Virus record (IMG/VR): IMGVR_UViG_3300025128_000232
Location: 1 to 28,597 of that record
Source of the DNA: a virus
Length of the DNA: 28,597 bases
Direction: 5' to 3' (one strand)
Below, one piece after another: positions 1,608 through 26,307 of this stretch. Within the stretch, counting starts at the first letter, position 1. Every line of letters begins with the position of its first letter. The notes below the pieces were generated by a model, which was not told where the DNA came from, did not search any database, and saw only the letters and a program-made list of their open reading frames with translations. Position numbers and translations under genes: made by a program.

Positions 1608-4600
1608 CTATCGAGCGTTTGAAGTCTTGAATGGGCTTTCAGCAATAGCCAAGTAGAAGTAAGTTGCGTTAGCCGGATCGTTGTAACTACCAGATGTCGT
1701 TCTAACTTTAAATCCATTACTAAGAAAGTCTACCACTGCTATATTCTCACCAATACCAGTACCGTTTACGGCTAGTCTCCAACCTTGCGGGTTATAGGTA
1801 TTTCTGACTCCATCAGTTACGTCCCAAGACGCGGAAACAGAAGTGCTTTTGACTAAAAGATATGCTGGTTTAAATCCTGTGTATACAAACGGCCCGTCAG
1901 TTGCCGATCCGTTTGCGGTATAATCACCTACCTTGCTGTAGCCTTCTACTGAGTGCCAACAATAGGCTATGAAATCATCGCCAGAGTCATTAATCCCTTC
2001 TACCCCACCATCTAATGTAAAGACACTTGCTGTTGGGCTAGTGTTAACCCAATGACCAGTTGCCTGTTGATAGTAAGGATCATTTAATTCTAATCTCTTG
2101 GTATTTCCAAGAGGTCCTACATACACAGGCCAACTAACAGCAGCATCCAAATTCTTTATAAATATTAATTCTGGAGCCTGTGAAAGCCCATGCCCAACAG
2201 TTACGTCTGAAGCAGAACCCGGATATTTAACAATGCTAAATCCCGCAGTAGCATTTGCACTACCAGAGCCACTAGCCACGGTTCCCGCTGTAGCCGGATC
2301 AAATGAGGTTCCGGCTTTCCAGTTCCATGAAACCATAGTATTAGATGGATTTGAACCACTACCAGTACCAAGAGTAAACCCATCACTATCAAAAGATTTT
2401 AAAGACTGTGCATCTGTTACTTCTGCATTATTGACGTTTGTGTAAACTTCTTTTGTTACACCACGAACTACGTCAAATAATCTGTGGTTATACGTCAACG
2501 CCCTAGCCTTAATCCAAGTAAAGTCTGGTTGAAATCCTACACCAGTTACAGCTAATTCTGAACCAGTACCTGTATACGTCACCGTATTGAAATGCTTACT
2601 AGGATCAGTAATACTTGGGTTATCAAGATTGTCCGTACAAAGCGCAAGGTATCCTGACGGCGGAGCATAATAGAAGTCTCCTTTGTTGTTAGCGTCCTGA
2701 TTGCCTTGTGCTGTTACTGTTCCAGCAAATGAACTGTCTTGTCCAAAGTTTGCTACCGTATTAAACTGATTACTGCCATTACCTTCTGCTACTAGAGGAG
2801 CGACCTCAGCAATTATACCCGTAGCCATTTGACCTTGAGTTGCACTATTTTTATAAAATGTAATAGTTCCGTTATCCATATCCAGAGCAACACCAATAAT
2901 ATCTCCAGCAGTATAGGTTGCTCCGTAAGAACCAGTACTACCGGGAATAGTCTTTTGGCCATCAGCATCGTATGTATAAGAAACTCCCATATCTACTGGC
3001 CCAGTTCCAGAAGAAGTACCGTATGTATTGGTCTTACATACACCAGTCCTACAATTGGCCGGTGCTGCTGCAGCTATGATATATATTTCCCAGTACCATT
3101 TTCCAGACTTGAGGCCAAAGGTTCCTCTATAGGCAATATGATTAGTACTATCTACAATTTTAAGATTACCTTCAGATACAACACCTGCAAGATTTGCAGC
3201 AAAGATATCTATAGGATTCCAAGTACAAAAGTTATTCATAGGACTATCCAGCATCATATCATGTGATGATAAATTAGTCGGTGTGAAAGAATTGTAGTTC
3301 CCAGAATGGTCTGCACCTAGGCCACCATCTGCGAAATCAGAATTCAACAAGAATACAGTATTAGAATCAGAAGTTACTCTGTCTGTTGGTTTTGTGAAGG
3401 CACTAGTGTATCTTGCACTATTAGAAATACGAATATTATCCATACCACCATTCAAGTCACCAGGACCAGCATACGATATGTTACCACCTATCTCAACACC
3501 ATTTTTACCATCTTCAATATCTTCACCATTAAGATCCGTATCTACAGATGAAGATAATGCTCCGTTTATGAATATTCTTCCATTCCCACTGCCATCTCTA
3601 CAAAAGGCAACGTGATTCCATACACCACATTCAATCTTGGTGCCAGTGGAGTCTACACTACCAACAGCACCAGTGCCGTTGTAAACATTAAACCTTACTT
3701 CCTCTTGATAACAATCAAAGGCCCAGTTTCCATTATTACCACCCACATAATAGTTGTCAGAATGTATTAACGCAGTATGAGCGTGAGAATCTTTGACCCA
3801 GAACCAAAACTCTATTGCAAAGGCTCCTGTTCCAAAATCAAAATCAGAACTTCCCGGAAGACTAATATAATCTCCCGTCCCATCAAAGTTTATATTTGAC
3901 TTGTACTTTGGAAGATTATTCTCGTAGTAAATTGCGTTTGTGGCAGAGTCGTGATAGTAGGTGCCTTGACCAACATTAGTATCTGAACCAGCAGTACCAG
4001 GACCACCACCATCAAAGTGCATTAGTAACCGAGTATCTATGTCATCTGTGTATGCTGTTGTTGATGGTGTAAAGTTTGATGTGTATAGTGCTTTACCTGG
4101 AGTAATACGAACCTGATCCATAAACCCTGCTATATTCCCACCACTAGTATTATGACTACCTGTACCTGTACTGTAAGAAGCAATAAAGAGGGAAGCAGTT
4201 GCACTGTAGTCCTGTGTAGCACTACTGTTAGTTGCTACCACAGTTCCGTTTACAAATATTTTATTTACGCCTGAAGCTCTACTTGCGGCAATATGTACCC
4301 AAGTATTACTGGCCCAACCAGTTGTGCCGCCTTGTGATAGTGTGTTACTAGAACCTGACCATTGAAGTCCATTAGAAGAATCCCACCAAAACACCCAGTC
4401 GCCACTGTTTACACTATTTCTGTGTGTAAAGAATTGTTGGTTGTTTGTTGAGATATTGTCTAGTGATACCCAAGCTTCTACTGTGAAGTCTCCTGAACCA
4501 AACTCTGCCCACGGACAACTTGCACCGGGGATATAAAGGCCGTTATCTCCACCGTTAGTGCGGTTACAACCTGTTCCTATTTTTGGTGCGACAACTTTTG

Positions 4601-13900: not shown

Positions 13901-14893
13901 TGTAGCAGCACTGGAAGTATAGAGTCCGTTATTGAACCCATCATCCAAATGTTCTTTTACTTCTATAGCAAAAGGCTTTACAATATAGTCACCAGACTCC
14001 TCTTCGGTTCGTCTGGCAAGCATATTCATAACTTCACTGTATTCTGGTTGACGAGTAGCAGATTTTAGAACACCATCCTCAAATCTCATCAACTCAATAA
14101 AGTTTGTATCTGTTGTTCCTGTAATTGTATGCTTTGCTAGTGTAAGGACAACCTTCAAACGATCCGCACCCTGCGCTGCAAAGTTAGATGCGCCCTGTGC
14201 ATTATCAAGCAAGGAACCATCATCAACGTCACTCACTAAACTTTCTGCAATATCAAACCCAACACGATAACTCGGTGTGTTCGTATATTTGTCTAGTATC
14301 AATGTTTGTGCCGCAACCCTAACAAACATACCACGAACAAAATAAACACCTTCAGTAATTGCTACAGAAGTACCTGTCGCTGCAGCATCTGTTGCCGCAG
14401 TCGTGGCCGAAGAAGTATTTGCACCAAAACTTCCAACAGCAGCATCGGCCTGGATATCTTCACCATTAGCAAATGCAGTAGTAGAAAAATCAGAACCAGT
14501 TGCAATATACTTAATATATAAAGTTTCTGGATCAGTTGTGGTAGCAGCTACCGATGCAATAACCCGAGCCTTAACGCCGGATGTAGCACCTGTTATTTCT
14601 TTACCAACATAGGAACTCAAATATGTACTGATAGCAGAGGAGTTATATGTGGACTGTAATTTTAATGCAAAGTATTCGTTATCAAAGTTTAGTGCCCCAG
14701 GAATAACTTGGGAGCCTTCCTTGAAAACGTGCCTACCAAATCTTTCGATTTGGTTTTGCATAATACTCTGAAGTTGCGTCAGTTCCCGTGCTTGAACAGC
14801 TTTACTAGGTTTGAATAATACTCTTTGAAAGTTGTCCGTTTCATCAAAGTCGTCATGGTAAGGGGTTACATTAAGATCAGTTTTTTGTGACAT
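7937..14893 (-). CDS. Giant DUF4815 virion structural protein (2318 aa)
   Basis: Large external tail or fibre protein of marine T4-like phages. The N-terminus (MSQKTDLNVTPYHDDFDETD; FKPSKAVQARELTQLQSIMQ; IERFGRHVFKEGSQVIPGA) is the recognisable start of the DUF4815 family. Several TGxTSGAxAxV beta modules are present (for example VSGNTSGAKALVVDHTG-like text near residues 880-900). A conserved C-terminal region begins near residue 1700 (DPLAQTIRIEDPEF), runs through DYNIWISRL and QPYLGSLFKSQNAS, and holds at about 1927-1999 a GKSGNNLTGCTRG module shared with the 997-aa protein. It starts at a TAATG junction with the preceding 133-aa gene. It occupies the place where T4 has gp9-gp12, so attachment of fibres at the baseplate rim is a fair guess. 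It has no enzyme motif that I can see. Confidence 0.85.
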   Translation of the reverse strand: MSQKTDLNVTPYHDDFDETDNFQRVLFKPSKAVQARELTQLQSIMQNQIERFGRHVFKEGSQVIPGALNFDNEYFALKLQSTYNSSAISTYLSSYVGKEITGATSGVKARVIASVAATTTDPETLYIKYIATGSDFSTTAFANGEDIQADAAVGSFGANTSSATTAATDAAATGTSVAITEGVYFVRGMFVRVAAQTLILDKYTNTPSYRVGFDIAESLVSDVDDGSLLDNAQGASNFAAQGADRLKVVLTLAKHTITGTTDTNFIELMRFEDGVLKSATRQPEYSEVMNMLARRTEEESGDYIVKPFAIEVKEHLDDGFNNGLYTSSAATPGDSTKFCTVIGPGKAYVSGFETERVSSSVVEFDKARTTATIDNETINADYGQYVRVTNVYGSPDITLNGTDTDPFKEIQLYNRQTATRGSTSGSHVGNARVRAFEYYGGTAGASSTNTTSKYNLHLFDINMFTDITMSANNSLTVNSLVTGGTTGATGFVVATTSGSTSFQLQGVVGRFTTGEAITSSTSSDTVSGTSSTVTLRKFNQDVKQVFGLYTVNAGEDFSADIDLDVNFTLTGSYSFANNDSITLEDSSGQLMQEDGAAGTEGLGDRLLGESVSTLIQTLNGELDEEIVVNDVIALPTGNNGALEQRRVTAVSGNLITMDSGYSSLVNDVAATRKRGEIKEPAAATLLFETSRSNTSTMLPSDTKHTIRRQYSGGSVITASGGVLTFNAPSGETFVTHSEKDYTLQIDALGSSTTGIAQGDIVSAGTGFVLSNSNQTITITNTNLGTNTAVKFIATLEITAATHKTKTRQKMATVTVTNNAASSGVYGHRVEDLEVSLGVADGYSAWAVYESGAIGTTPVTPTMVIASQTGVFVDGEQIVGNTSGAKALVVDHTGTTVKFAYQGDTLFTASDQITGQTNSYTAQVSSVTAGDPDVGYKYTFDSGMRDGFYDIARIRRRANQSAPTGQLLIVFDYFTHGAGNFFNVDSYTNQTDYDQIPAYENDSLSDYMDFRPRVADVSTSGSNNPFSFNVRKFEGTNSSQTLMPRPGNAMLADFKYYQGRCDYLLLTNTGKFVVVKGVPADEPVFPTNELPDTMVLGALTIYPYTISPDAVDIQIPSHRRWTMKDITGLSKRLKNLERTISLSLLEKKTENFRILDAEGFDRFKTGFLVDSFKDHGVANTQHPDYAGSVDRERGEFRPGLDVQTVELKEENTTDDERTADGYMKKGDMAMLPYTDEAMLQHSNKFATRQENLNPFSVTLWNGNVELDPESDLWIDTNRQAAFSVNVEGDWEAWQSWLGKDDNGQPRWSRDVWKSWQTDSVRMKAALNLSNKVTSKSSAVKGTRYRDTSTRNPNGSAAKGNLFAVRNDVKTTTSVTTSGTVKVQSFLNQSRQGERFDLETFRQNRSAGDETTMEVIPWMRERDVTVTATNMKPNTRVYAFFNERDVNAHVRPIGVSQTTTALTANVSKTDTTISVTSTAGFPDTGEITLSQIVAAVDGERTFDAGDLSPGSGDQHRWQNTSGTTYVSSETMTYSAKTSTTFTISARGSKGTTITEHKSYTDPEPTSSTYNTTIYPTVSDSVNGQPLITDSMGQLACVFKIPNSDEMRFATGKGTFRLTDSSSNNRIAGTVFTSGEAMYNAFGQKQIKQERVNSLRNGKLIRTDLETKERTIKSNVGKGTDTTTGRVSTVEKDVFHGWRDPLAQTIRIEDPEFQDDGVFLTKVDVFFATKDTSTNPKPVTLQLRPVVNGYPAWEAIPGATVVLPASSVNTDDTAATATTFTFDYPIHLRSFTEYAVVLFSDSLDYNIWISRLTETDVGGTQLVSEQPYLGSLFKSQNASAWTTSQFEDLKFSLYRAKFDTTKTGHVYTVNQELDRRAGFVAKSDGKTKYLAKNPLETFSGSNKVKVKYYSHGMHSTLNNVVIRDVASEISDTTLNESGELSAADTTITLSSATNFASAGFIKIDNEVIQYTGKSGNNLTGCTRGSDSTTATTHEDGSVVKFYVFAGIPLTEINKTHTSISGVEFDSFEITTTTNASKTFTGGGSAALITKNISYDTFYPKVKVMEFTTATATTNAQVTSGMSLGSTQTPFSRTANADSFEVPLYENYLFGSPKVICSQVNETNELSGNKSLRFDTILTTDKDSVSPVIDLGTGQMGVICIANRINQVDSSSDVGTLSGSLSTFKDSKQPSGDNNVAIYITKEISLKQEATAIKTIFDATVQSGASLEVYYRIAQSNSETPFEEIEWVPFNTTGIPDVTTPLSLDINDFREYEYTAGKNDDVATTTLPLEGFGSFAIKIVMKSLNTAKPPILRDFRTMALAE
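8895..9112 (-). repeat. Shared ~70-residue structural module, copy 1
   Basis: This segment of the 2318-aa protein (from TLNESGELS to GSVVKFY, with TGKSGNNLTGCTRG at its centre) is homologous to 16863-17080 in the 997-aa protein. Similarity is visible in both protein and DNA. A more diverged relative with an insertion appears near 10215-10520. Confidence 0.75.
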
Positions 14894-15276
14894 TATGCTG
14901 CCCTCTTCCGTGCTCTGTATTCTCGCATTTGCTTATTGTACGCATCTCTATCCTTATCCCTGTATGCTTGAGCTGACGCTCGAGATTTCTCATTATTCTT
15001 TTTACGATACTCTCTCTGGTATTCGTTATAAGCATCTCGGTTTTTCTCGCGATACTTTTCCATCCGTTTAGCACCTTTTTCTCTACCTTCTGGTGTTCGT
15101 CTTCCAGCATTTCGTCTAAGGCGAGATGCTTCTTCACCACCTGACCATCTCGGGTTTTTCTCTCCATCTTGAAATCCCCATCCCGATCCAGATACACCAC
15201 CTACAGTATAATCTTTTCCTTCTACAAGTTCATAATCCTTGCAAGTACCATACTTGATACCCAAGGCCTTTTCCAT
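14893..15276 (-). CDS. Basic repeat protein, possible homing-endonuclease relative
   Basis: About 127 aa from the ATG at 15276; an upstream TTG at 15294, overlapping the gp8 stop, would add six residues. The N-terminal third has GEKNPRWSGG, like the NPxWxGG element that precedes HNH domains in phage endonucleases. The C-terminal half is strongly basic with two tandem repeats of about 22 residues: YREKNRDAYNEYQREYRKKN and YRDKDRDAYNKQMREYRARK. Such charged Tyr/Arg repeats occur in homing-endonuclease-like phage proteins, but I see no HNH, GIY-YIG or other catalytic residues. It is squeezed between gp8 and the 2318-aa gene and joined to the latter by TAATG. It may be a relic of a mobile endonuclease or a DNA-binding protein. 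The function is unassigned. Confidence 0.65.
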   Translation of the reverse strand: MEKALGIKYGTCKDYELVEGKDYTVGGVSGSGWGFQDGEKNPRWSGGEEASRLRRNAGRRTPEGREKGAKRMEKYREKNRDAYNEYQREYRKKNNEKSRASAQAYRDKDRDAYNKQMREYRARKRAA

Positions 15277-15290
15277 TGCTTCGTATTTTC

Positions 15291-16694
15291 TCAAAATTCA
15301 ATTACCAGTTTCACGTTTTCTGTTTGGTCAGTCGCACGAACGATAGGTGCTCTGTGTTCGGTATAAAGGATATCGCCTGAATGATGTGCTATCTCAGGAT
15401 TGTTTACGGCAGACATCGTTCCTGTAGCACTTGAAGATGCACCAGTAACAACTTCTGTCCCAGCAAACGCTGTGATATTCTTATTAGCATCTATACCAGT
15501 ATAGTCACTTTGATAGTAAGACAAAACTCTAGTTGTAGCGTTCCAATCTACTACAACACCTTTCGCACCTGTTGTGCCACCAGTGATAATCTCATCATTA
15601 GTAAAAGTACCTGGTGTCGGTGAGGAGTTGAATGTAACTGACTTGAGAGCACTCAATGTACTTCCTGTTGAAACTGTAGTCGTACCATGGTTATAAGGAT
15701 TTCTTACTAGGCCGATTCTACGGAAGTCCTGATTAACTACAAAGTCGCCAGAACCTTCTGCACCAACCAGTGCTGTGTTAGTCATACAGTAAAATGCACC
15801 AAGTTCCTTGAGAGCATCTTTACCATGACCACCCCTTGGCCCGATGACAGGTGACAATACTGCTGCAGTACTCGGAGAGCCCACAGAAGTAATACCATTA
15901 ACGTGTACTGCACCGTATGTGTATCCTGTGCCCTGTGTTGTTACTGTAACTGTTGTAACAGCACCGCCAGCAATAACCACTGTACACTGACCACTAGTAC
16001 CATCTCCACGAATAGGCACTGCGGTATATGTACCGTTAGTATATCCTGCCCCTGCCGTTGTAATAGTAATTCTACGAACTTCACCATCAACTGCCGCCGC
16101 CGATACAGTAGAAGCCGAGGCCCCTGATACTGTTCCTTTAGTATCAACAACCGGCATAAAGTCAGTAGTCAAAAAGTTTTGTATTTGAGTAGAAGTTAGG
16201 GTATACATATATTTCCAAATGTAACCATCACCAGGATCAAACTCTGTATTGCCAGTGCCTGTAGGTTTGGTGGTAGAGGCTGTATTACCATCATTCCACA
16301 TACACTTATAAACTTTATTCTCGTCTGTCATAACAATAAAAGAGGAGGCAAACAAACTTGTTGCTCCACTGTTAGCAGTATTACTAGCACTATAGTCGTG
16401 CCTGTAGTAATCGTATGTTGTACCCGATGCCCAGTTTCGTCTTGGAATGACAAAGGAAACATCACTTGCCGATACACGTTTGGCTGCTATCATATCACGC
16501 CATTGACGTTCTTCTTCTTCTACGTTATCAGCTGGTGCGGGTGGAGCAGCATCTGACCCTCCACCTGTCGTGGAACTCCACTGCTGTGGTCGTCCAATAA
16601 ACATATAGTAATTGGTAGCAGCGGCCTCACCAAATGACTCATAAAACTGTTCAGCATTATGAATCCTAAATTTGTTTGAAATAATTGCAGCCAT
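15291..16694 (-). CDS. 8: Baseplate wedge protein gp8
   Basis: Structural protein of the T4-type baseplate wedge. From memory of T4 gp8, the matches are strong and ordered: FRIHNAEQFYESFG (T4 FRTEKMLNFYNSIG), IGRPQQWSS at 33-41 (T4 FGRSEPWSS), VIPRRNW at 82-88 (T4 VIPRRDW), DPGDGYIWKY at about 153-162 (T4 EPGDGYVWEY), and the C-terminal HHSGDILYTEHRAP...DQTENVKLVIEF (T4 RHSGEMIYMENRPP...DQTEEINILFTF). At 467 aa it is longer than T4 gp8 (334 aa). The extra length is in two places: GxGY beta repeats around 185-270 and TGGTTGAKG modules around 355-435. A late promoter lies just upstream and the ribosome site is GGAGAG. Confidence 0.93.
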   Translation of the reverse strand: MAAIISNKFRIHNAEQFYESFGEAAATNYYMFIGRPQQWSSTTGGGSDAAPPAPADNVEEEERQWRDMIAAKRVSASDVSFVIPRRNWASGTTYDYYRHDYSASNTANSGATSLFASSFIVMTDENKVYKCMWNDGNTASTTKPTGTGNTEFDPGDGYIWKYMYTLTSTQIQNFLTTDFMPVVDTKGTVSGASASTVSAAAVDGEVRRITITTAGAGYTNGTYTAVPIRGDGTSGQCTVVIAGGAVTTVTVTTQGTGYTYGAVHVNGITSVGSPSTAAVLSPVIGPRGGHGKDALKELGAFYCMTNTALVGAEGSGDFVVNQDFRRIGLVRNPYNHGTTTVSTGSTLSALKSVTFNSSPTPGTFTNDEIITGGTTGAKGVVVDWNATTRVLSYYQSDYTGIDANKNITAFAGTEVVTGASSSATGTMSAVNNPEIAHHSGDILYTEHRAPIVRATDQTENVKLVIEF

Positions 16695-25313: not shown

Positions 25314-25413
25314 TGGCTCCGGGAGGTTGGCTCGAACAACCACTTGACTGCTTTCGCAATAGTCAACACCCTATAAACGGTAGGGCTGCTTTACCAAGTT
25401 AGCATATCCCGGA
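25314..25413 (-). tRNA. tRNA-Asn-like (GUU) with 27-nt variable arm; noncanonical
   Basis: All tRNA elements fold without mismatch. Acceptor TCCGGGA pairs with TCCCGGA (7 bp), then G73 and encoded CCA. T8 A9 are followed by D stem TGCT/AGCA with a GG-containing loop, anticodon stem CCCTA/TAGGG, and T stem GGTTG/CAACC with loop TTCGAGC. The 7-nt anticodon loop CCGTTTA puts GTT at 25378-25376, the Asn anticodon. U1-A72 and G73, and the first three pairs TCC/GGA, agree with E. coli tRNA-Asn as I recall it. Three things are abnormal: C instead of U at 33, U instead of a purine at 37, and a 27-nt variable region (25368-25342) with a 6-bp stem TTGACT/AGTCAA capped by GCGAAAGC. Long variable arms belong to Ser, Leu, Tyr and Sec tRNAs, not Asn. 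It begins 8 nt after the stop of the synthetase-like gene, on the same strand. It could be a working tRNA or a tRNA mimic. Confidence 0.85.
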
Positions 25414-25421
25414 GTATTTTT

Positions 25422-26276
25422 TTAGTGCATATTTTTTATCACATCCCTAACATTATACATCTGCTTTGCTCGTATAAATCGGGTCATCCCAATGCCACCT
25501 CCGTATCTGGGAATAAAGTCGTGATCCAGAAACTCATCTAGTTCTTTCTCAACTCTATTCTTACCAAACAGTCCAAAAAGTAAGTTTGCATATAGTCCAT
25601 CAGATATAGTATGAAACATATTTCGCATCTCATCTTTATCTGACGACCTTTCAGCTGAACCTATAGTTTCCTGTTCCATGATGATAACATCTATCTTGGC
25701 GGCAGTTCCGTCACCGTTCTGTTTCATGTTCCAGAAGGGACTTGTATAGTTGGGGAAGTTCTTTATCATACAAGGGCGGCCACCCCAGCTACGACACATA
25801 TCTCTTTCGTGGTCGTGGTCTAACTCCTCAACATGAAATGTCTCGGCCCAGTCCTTGTAGTCCTTGGCCACCACTTGGTCTCTTGCACAGAACTGAACGT
25901 GCTCAAGAAGTTCCTTTTCAAGTTCCTCCAAATCCGACACAGTTCCGGGTGCCTCGAACTCAAACATGGGAAAAATAGTTTCGTGACGACCTTCTACTAT
26001 ATTTGGTTCTTGTCTATAAGATGTGCTCATACAAAAAAACCCCTTCGATGAGGGGTTTCGTAAAAGCTCATACTCCAACCACATTTGGCCGGTTTGTGGG
26101 AGAGGCCATACCTCTCCATTATAATTGTAAGTTGCTACAGTTTCCGGGTCTTCGCAGGCGGCCAGGATGCTCAATCTATTTTGTGTATGTACCTCTTGAA
26201 AGCCTTTGGCCAAAAAAAAACCACGTAGTAACGTGGCCGATTCAGTAAACTCTCTAGGTGAGATTATTGCAGTCAT
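25422..26276 (-). CDS. AspRS/AsnRS-family class II synthetase-like protein, catalytic core only
   Basis: 284 aa. Class II aminoacyl-tRNA synthetase fold. Motif 2 is YRQE (87-90) with R97-H98 and FPMFEFE (102-108). Motif 3 is GGGIGMTR (259-266). LPQTGQ (59-64), GSAER (206-210) and the ending NVRDVI (275-280) are AspRS/AsnRS features. The ATP-binding arginines of motifs 2 and 3 are present. The motif 1 region (AKGFQEVHTQN) has Gln where the family has its invariant Pro. There is no N-terminal OB-fold anticodon-binding domain; synthetases of this family usually exceed 400 aa. The GGGIG(x)(S/T)R form of motif 3 also resembles asparagine synthetase AsnA, so free-Asn synthesis is the main alternative to tRNA charging. 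It is driven by a late promoter, with GAGGA ahead of the ATG, and is followed at 8 nt by the tRNA-like gene. Two terminator-like hairpins lie in its coding sequence. Confidence 0.85.
   Translation of the reverse strand: MTAIISPREFTESATLLRGFFLAKGFQEVHTQNRLSILAACEDPETVATYNYNGEVWPLPQTGQMWLEYELLRNPSSKGFFCMSTSYRQEPNIVEGRHETIFPMFEFEAPGTVSDLEELEKELLEHVQFCARDQVVAKDYKDWAETFHVEELDHDHERDMCRSWGGRPCMIKNFPNYTSPFWNMKQNGDGTAAKIDVIIMEQETIGSAERSSDKDEMRNMFHTISDGLYANLLFGLFGKNRVEKELDEFLDHDFIPRYGGGIGMTRFIRAKQMYNVRDVIKNMH
26033..26058 (-). terminator. Terminator-like hairpin inside synthetase gene (2nd)
   Basis: On the coding strand AAACCCCT pairs with AGGGGTTT (8 bp, 6-nt loop), and the T run continues to seven T in total. 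This is the shape of an intrinsic terminator, placed at codons 73-82 of the synthetase-like protein. Whether it stops transcription while ribosomes are present is unknown. Confidence 0.55.
26212..26236 (-). terminator. Terminator-like hairpin inside synthetase gene (1st)
   Basis: On the coding strand CCACGT-TACT-ACGTGG (6 bp, 4-nt loop) is followed directly by nine T. It has textbook intrinsic-terminator form but lies at codons 14-22 of the synthetase-like protein, about 65 nt from the predicted transcription start. Confidence 0.6.
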
Positions 26277-26299
26277 ATATATGTCCTCAAAGTTTTATC

Positions 26300-26307
26300 T
26301 ATTTATA
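26300..26307 (-). promoter_or_regulatory. T4-type late promoter for synthetase-tRNA unit
   Basis: Exact TATAAATA on the minus strand, ending 23 nt before the synthetase-like ATG. The leader of about 18 nt carries GAGGA. This suggests the synthetase-like gene and the tRNA are made late, together with virion proteins, rather than early like most phage tRNAs. Confidence 0.75.

Follow-up and report, generated by a model that had tools for sequence, protein, structure and literature searches.

A gene for a compact, AsnRS-like class II synthetase core and, behind it, a gene for a long-armed tRNA-Asn-like RNA form a two-gene unit that is present in hundreds of marine virus contigs. The unit analyzed here lies in IMG/VR record IMGVR_UViG_3300025128_000232, whose positions 1 to 28,597 make up the window (28,597 nt in all). 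The pairing of enzyme and RNA is conserved whichever of the two genes is used to search, and is strongly supported. What does the unit do? The reading that we favor, drawn from sequence comparisons and in our judgment evenly poised between right and wrong, is that enzyme and RNA would be a dedicated pair, in which the enzyme charges the RNA by way of its acceptor end and arm.

Layout and distribution of the viral unit

The unit occupies the minus strand of the window, where promoter, GAGG, ORF, spacer, cloverleaf RNA and encoded CCA follow one another in that order:

26300..26307, minus strand: T4-type late promoter TATAAATA, 23 nt upstream of the start codon (sequence)
26285..26288, minus strand: GAGG, Shine-Dalgarno-like (sequence)
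25422..26276, minus strand: 284-aa class II (AsnRS/AspRS-type) catalytic core without OB-fold, phrog_29758 (ORF, ATG start)
25414..25421, minus strand: 8-nt spacer from stop codon to RNA (sequence)
25317..25413, minus strand: long-arm tRNA-Asn-like RNA, position 1 to G73 (fold, R1 match, covariation)
25376..25378, minus strand: anticodon GUU, positions 34-36 (sequence; GUU in 93 of 94 relatives)
25375..25375, minus strand: U37, where A37 is usual (U in 81 of 87 distinct long-arm RNAs)
25379..25379, minus strand: C33, where U33 is usual (non-U33 in 24 of 87 distinct RNAs)
25342..25368, minus strand: variable region of 27 nt with the long arm, stem GACT/AGTC plus flanking pairs (fold)
25314..25316, minus strand: encoded CCA (sequence; also encoded in 50 of 94 relatives)

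The tRNA-like gene 8 nt past the synthetase stop, first described in a sequence-only reading of this DNA, is thus confirmed, as is the late promoter claimed there. No terminator-like site was reported in a scan of the spacer. Among 124 distinct viral homologues, 48 have NATAAATA within 110 nt upstream, versus 184 of 6337 control stretches; late promoters before many viral copies imply that those copies are expressed late.

Scanning IMG/VR, phage records and genomes, we collected 129 distinct viral or phage-like enzymes. A cloverleaf lies no more than 260 nt downstream in 94 of the 119 with enough sequence past the stop, mostly at a gap of 4-12 nt, and at least five further viral enzymes have the same type of RNA downstream within about 1 kb (0.4-1 kb in some). 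About one fifth of viral enzymes have no RNA nearby. A search with the RNA only gave 118 loci, 109 of them with enough upstream sequence; the enzyme is upstream in 105 of these 109, and within 300 nt in 103. In most viral relatives the tRNA thus lies close downstream of the core, which the earlier reading had proposed to check. Homologues that commonly occur without the tRNA, named there as a refutation, are seen in cells, where none of 73 relatives has the RNA (see below), and not in viruses.

The surroundings of the viral unit vary from baseplate genes (the window) to capsid genes (P-SSM7) and nucleotide metabolism (P-SSM2). Because the other viral neighbors are random, enzyme and RNA move together as two genes. 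In a tree of 133 proteins, the RNA-linked viral enzymes fall into two clades, the main one with 53 viral rows and a smaller one (support 86). The two stand apart with cellular sequences between them, so the linkage either is old or has more than one origin. Elsewhere in the window, positions 14893-15294 encode a 133-aa protein with charged repeats (YREKNRDAYNEYQREYRKKN) and no Pfam match.

The unit has been glimpsed before. The cyanophage family T4-GC194, a 'tRNA ligase' of P-SSM2, P-SSM5 and P-SSM7 (PMC3037559), is the same gene with its RNA; in the passages found, that paper lists it by annotation only and does not discuss the pair itself. A blastn search with the P-SSM2 RNA against 50,697 phage records matched P-SSM2, P-SSM5 and P-SSM7 only, all of which carry the enzyme. 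Our search of the open-access literature found no description of the enzyme-RNA pair or of the cellular family. In the RefSeq record of P-SSM2 (NC_006883.2), tRNA-Asn PSSM2_199 is annotated at 164094-164179, within another gene; the RNA (L082) truly lies at 162083-162168, directly behind the enzyme gene.

The four RNA loci without the enzyme (L341, L378, L385 and L410) belong to a separate phage group, on contigs of 47-196 kb, and a whole-record search of all four, run without a positive control among the genomes, gave no enzyme match. They encode a long-arm tRNA-Asn with U37, and HNH-like and nucleotidyltransferase-like genes lie nearby. This group, in which an ordinary tRNA-Asn is near in three of the four loci, suits a reading in which the RNA is an ordinary phage translation supplement, charged by the host and altered in its loop against anticodon nucleases, the enzyme being unrelated. 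Some phage tRNAs are known to be protected from nucleases by changes in the anticodon loop (PMC10264068), and those tRNAs resemble the present RNA in being phage-encoded with an altered anticodon loop. The RNA described here, however, is accompanied by its own synthetase-like enzyme at nearly all testable loci. A supplement would also have no use for a long arm or for U37, and U37 should impair both charging by AsnRS and decoding. We consider this reading unlikely.

The RNA and its enzyme

The window RNA folds into a full cloverleaf (MFE -32.5, z -2.1), although neither ARAGORN nor Rfam, at gathering and relaxed thresholds, called it. In an alignment of 25 RNAs, the window RNA included, 100% of stem cells are paired, compensatory changes occur in 18 of 20 pairs, and 0 of 500 shuffles were equally good. 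The R1 RNA model built from these 25 sequences scores the window RNA, one of its own members, at 70.5 bits. The covarying relatives show that the window RNA is real despite the absence of an ARAGORN or Rfam call.

How much of a tRNA-Asn is it? The bacterial Asn identity elements are G73, G34, U35, U36 and A37 (PMC9976931). With canonical tRNA-Asn the phage RNA shares G34-U35-U36, G73 and U1-A72; among relatives, U1-A72 occurs in 90 of 94 (A1-U72 in three), G73 in all 94 and GUU in 93 of 94. These elements, in which the sequence-only reading had seen a pointer to Asn, are thus near constant while the remaining stem positions covary. Unlike canonical tRNA-Asn, the phage RNA has a long variable arm, U37, a tRNA-Leu-like D arm and, in the window, C33. 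The window anticodon loop, C32-C33-G34-U35-U36-U37-A38, lacks both U33 and a purine at 37. Of 87 distinct long-arm RNAs, 81 have U at position 37, versus a purine in 115 of 118 ordinary tRNAs from the same viral loci; U33 is replaced in 24 of the 87, chiefly in the window's clade. The t6A modification at position 37 requires A37. One relative (L017, just past position 3858) has the anticodon GTC (Asp), not GTT, together with G37.

The variable arm has at least 3 bp in 85 of 87 distinct relatives, and the variable region measures 12-38 nt in 93 of 94. Long variable regions are a feature of tRNAs for Leu, Ser and Tyr, and for LeuRS a G73 acts as an antideterminant (PMC9976931). The body is tRNA-Leu-like: when a dedicated long-arm tRNA-Asn was sought with the R1 model in 12 bacterial genomes, the top matches examined were ordinary tRNA-Leu, with one tRNA-Tyr, and a cellular RNA of this kind was rejected. 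The long variable arm and U37, joined in the window by the loss of U33, mark the RNA, as judged from its sequence, as something other than an ordinary tRNA-Asn.

Could the RNA instead act in cis, giving the enzyme mRNA a tRNA-like 3' end for its processing, protection or regulation? Its place directly behind the stop codon and the constancy of the tRNA shape would suit such a role. A processing signal, however, needs no constant GUU, G73 or U1-A72, nor a CCA, which is encoded in about half of relatives, and in some viruses the RNA stands 0.4-1 kb off. We regard a cis element as highly improbable.

The enzyme was correctly recognized at the outset as a 284-aa class II core of the AspRS/AsnRS family without an OB-fold: PF00152 matches residues 14-280 (6.4e-12, above the gathering score), and nothing N-terminal to the match could be an OB-fold. 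The protein also matches phrog_29758 (8e-121), a family annotated as of unknown function. An AlphaFold model built from 49 relatives (pLDDT 91.7, pTM 0.90) was compared with structures in the PDB, as had been proposed; the best match is AsnRS (Z 27.1), ahead of AspRS (25.9) and archaeal asparagine synthetase A (24.1). The AsnRS match covers 247 residues at 24% identity and is aligned on the catalytic part of AsnRS chains. Direct phmmer of the window protein against the PDB gave no match; matches came with the profile alone.

Like AsnRS, a class IIb enzyme, the window protein has the catalytic fold, class II motifs 2 and 3, and Leu at the site where AspRS has Lys (QMWLE versus QLYLE and QLYKQ). 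Unlike AsnRS, it has no OB-fold and scores 32.8 bits against TIGR00457, below the cut-off of 342.6. A Glu conserved among the aligned AsnRS and AspRS chains is Ile in the window protein, a replacement that speaks against a firm assignment of the amino acid used. By the model, then, the predicted fold is nearest AsnRS, yet the protein falls under the family cut-offs of both AsnRS and AsnA.

An AsnA-like enzyme was the alternative named in the earlier reading. In the form considered here, the enzyme would be a free asparagine synthetase of the AsnA or AS-AR kind, with the RNA adjacent since both aid asparagine supply. Archaeal asparagine synthetase A (AS-AR), an AsnRS paralogue, is likewise a free-standing core with no anticodon domain, and the structural match is close (Z 24). 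The window protein nevertheless lies far under the cut-off of that family (18.3 bits against 389), which disfavors the alternative; cellular genomes with a relative of the window protein often have AsnB as well (8 of 12 genomes) and sometimes AsnA (2 of 12), and the alternative gives no account of the loop and arm of the RNA. AS-AR is not known to have a tRNA partner. A free asparagine synthetase seems to us quite improbable.

Cellular relatives and pyrimidine genes

A scan of cellular genomes found at least 125 relatives, a few of them phage-like contigs in metagenome bins. Many belong to Patescibacteria and Bacteroidota, with others in Midichloriaceae, a Pasteurella chromosome, Dependentiae and a Nanoarchaeon; outside the phage-like contigs they are 49-61% identical to the window protein. 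None of the 73 cellular relatives examined has the RNA downstream. Cellular and viral enzymes have nearly all invariant residues in common, including most of motif 2.

The cellular genes often adjoin pyrD, pyrF or pyrE in several phyla (L139, L117, L123, L103, L140, L115 and others). A dihydroorotate dehydrogenase or OMP decarboxylase match, in some cases weak, lies in the fetched flank at 19 of 75 cellular loci, and at the Pasteurella, Midichloriaceae and Rhodospirillaceae loci the enzyme gene is followed by pyrF and then by a phosphoribosyltransferase-like gene. At three loci (L107, L129 and L166) the enzyme gene is preceded by one for an argininosuccinate-lyase-like protein, which in L107 scores 322 bits with the argH model.

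We tested 12 cellular genomes that carry the enzyme gene, several of them small or draft MAGs, alongside 14 control genomes. In these 12, several being small or draft, CarB was above cut-off in two, PyrB in two and the dihydroorotase pyrC_multi in two, with pyrC_dimer in none. DHODH was found in 9 of 12, and CarB, PyrB and DHODH were all found in 14 of 14 controls. The enzyme gene coexists with AsnRS above cut-off in 7 of 12 genomes, so the family does not serve as an AsnRS replacement in cells; the AsnB and AsnA counts given above likewise refer to matches above cut-off. We infer a role for the cellular enzyme in pyrimidine synthesis, and a pyrimidine route of a new kind in these cells is possible.

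This context raises another explanation of the viral unit. The enzyme may still do what its cellular relatives do, acting on Asn or Asp as small molecules to supply dihydroorotate with no need of carbamoyl phosphate. The RNA, aminoacylated either by host AsnRS or through AspRS plus GatCAB, would be the carrier or source of Asn. The pyr neighbors of the cellular genes, the rarity of CarB and PyrB matches beside frequent DHODH (controls 14 of 14) and the common invariant residues all speak for it, as do the place of the P-SSM2 unit in a nucleotide-metabolism region and U1-A72, on which tRNA-dependent amidotransferases rely for amidation (PMC9976931). Against it, the commonest families beside viral copies include no pyrimidine genes, the 12 genomes include several small or draft MAGs, the promoter is late, the RNA is without A37, an Asn determinant for AsnRS, and chemistry from aminoacyl-tRNA to dihydroorotate is not known. 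We hold this explanation to be unlikely, though it is the main contender. A broader version would make the family a so far undescribed enzyme, derived from AsnRS, by which cells obtain dihydroorotate while bypassing carbamoyl phosphate, and which in viruses is tied to a dedicated, non-decoding aminoacyl-RNA. This version strikes us as distinctly unlikely.

A possible dedicated synthetase-tRNA pair

The RNA is the sole constant companion of the viral enzyme, and the simplest reading is therefore that the enzyme charges it. Under the dedicated-pair reading, marine phages would possess a mobile unit of two genes that puts enzyme and RNA on one late transcript. The AsnRS-like enzyme would have lost anticodon reading, and the RNA behind it would be its dedicated substrate. 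The enzyme would adenylate asparagine, or a close aspartate derivative, and pass the amino acid to the 3' end of the RNA, which it would recognize by the acceptor end (U1-A72, G73) and probably also by the long arm. Host LeuRS, AsnRS and AspRS may be kept off by the RNA's long arm, its U37, its altered loop and a G73 set on a tRNA-Leu-like body, and enzyme and RNA would then be orthogonal to the host. The charged RNA might then decode AAY codons, perhaps resisting anticodon nucleases, or serve outside translation.

The closest parallel in working is PylRS/tRNA-Pyl, a dedicated synthetase-tRNA pair that ignores the anticodon, as we propose here. In that system the anticodon is unused and the acceptor end is a determinant (PMC9976931). 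The phage pair differs in having GUU rather than CUA, a long-arm tRNA-Leu-like body and an enzyme nearest AsnRS, and we do not propose that it belongs to the PylRS system.

Several observations count against a dedicated pair. The strongest, which keeps the carrier explanation alive, is that viral and cellular enzymes share their invariant residues, which argues against special tRNA charging in the viruses. In cells, the relatives stand without a neighboring tRNA and often among pyrimidine genes; there are RNA-less viral enzymes and the enzyme-less phage group; and the viral enzymes are strongly acidic (mean pI 4.8). An enzyme blind to the anticodon would not need a constant GUU, and that constancy favors decoding or recognition by an anticodon-reading enzyme. 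U37 and the window's C33, on the other hand, argue against efficient ordinary decoding. Of the original proposal of a dedicated pair, the part that stands as observed is that the two genes are conserved together (94 of 119 and 105 of 109); charging would follow if the dedicated-pair reading is right. Plain Asn-tRNA supply, one of the purposes first suggested, has U37 and the window's lost U33 against it. Asn-rich virion proteins were considered as the reason and rejected, Asn making up 6.3% across 11 window proteins, mostly structural.

What would such a pair mean? We think that the unit functions in the manner of a dedicated synthetase-tRNA pair, though the chance that it is something else is real. 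The cellular relatives, for their part, hint at a pyrimidine-synthesis enzyme in organisms that gave no match to carbamoyl-phosphate synthetase or aspartate carbamoyltransferase. With its tRNA-Leu-like body, long arm and U37, a tRNA-Asn of this kind departs from rules held to be general, and so unusual an RNA makes the purpose of phage tRNAs directly testable. If the enzyme does charge the RNA, hundreds of marine phage contigs would hold a natural, compact synthetase-tRNA pair that works without anticodon reading, and the unit would be a fresh case of rebuilt synthetase/tRNA identity as well as a candidate orthogonal pair.
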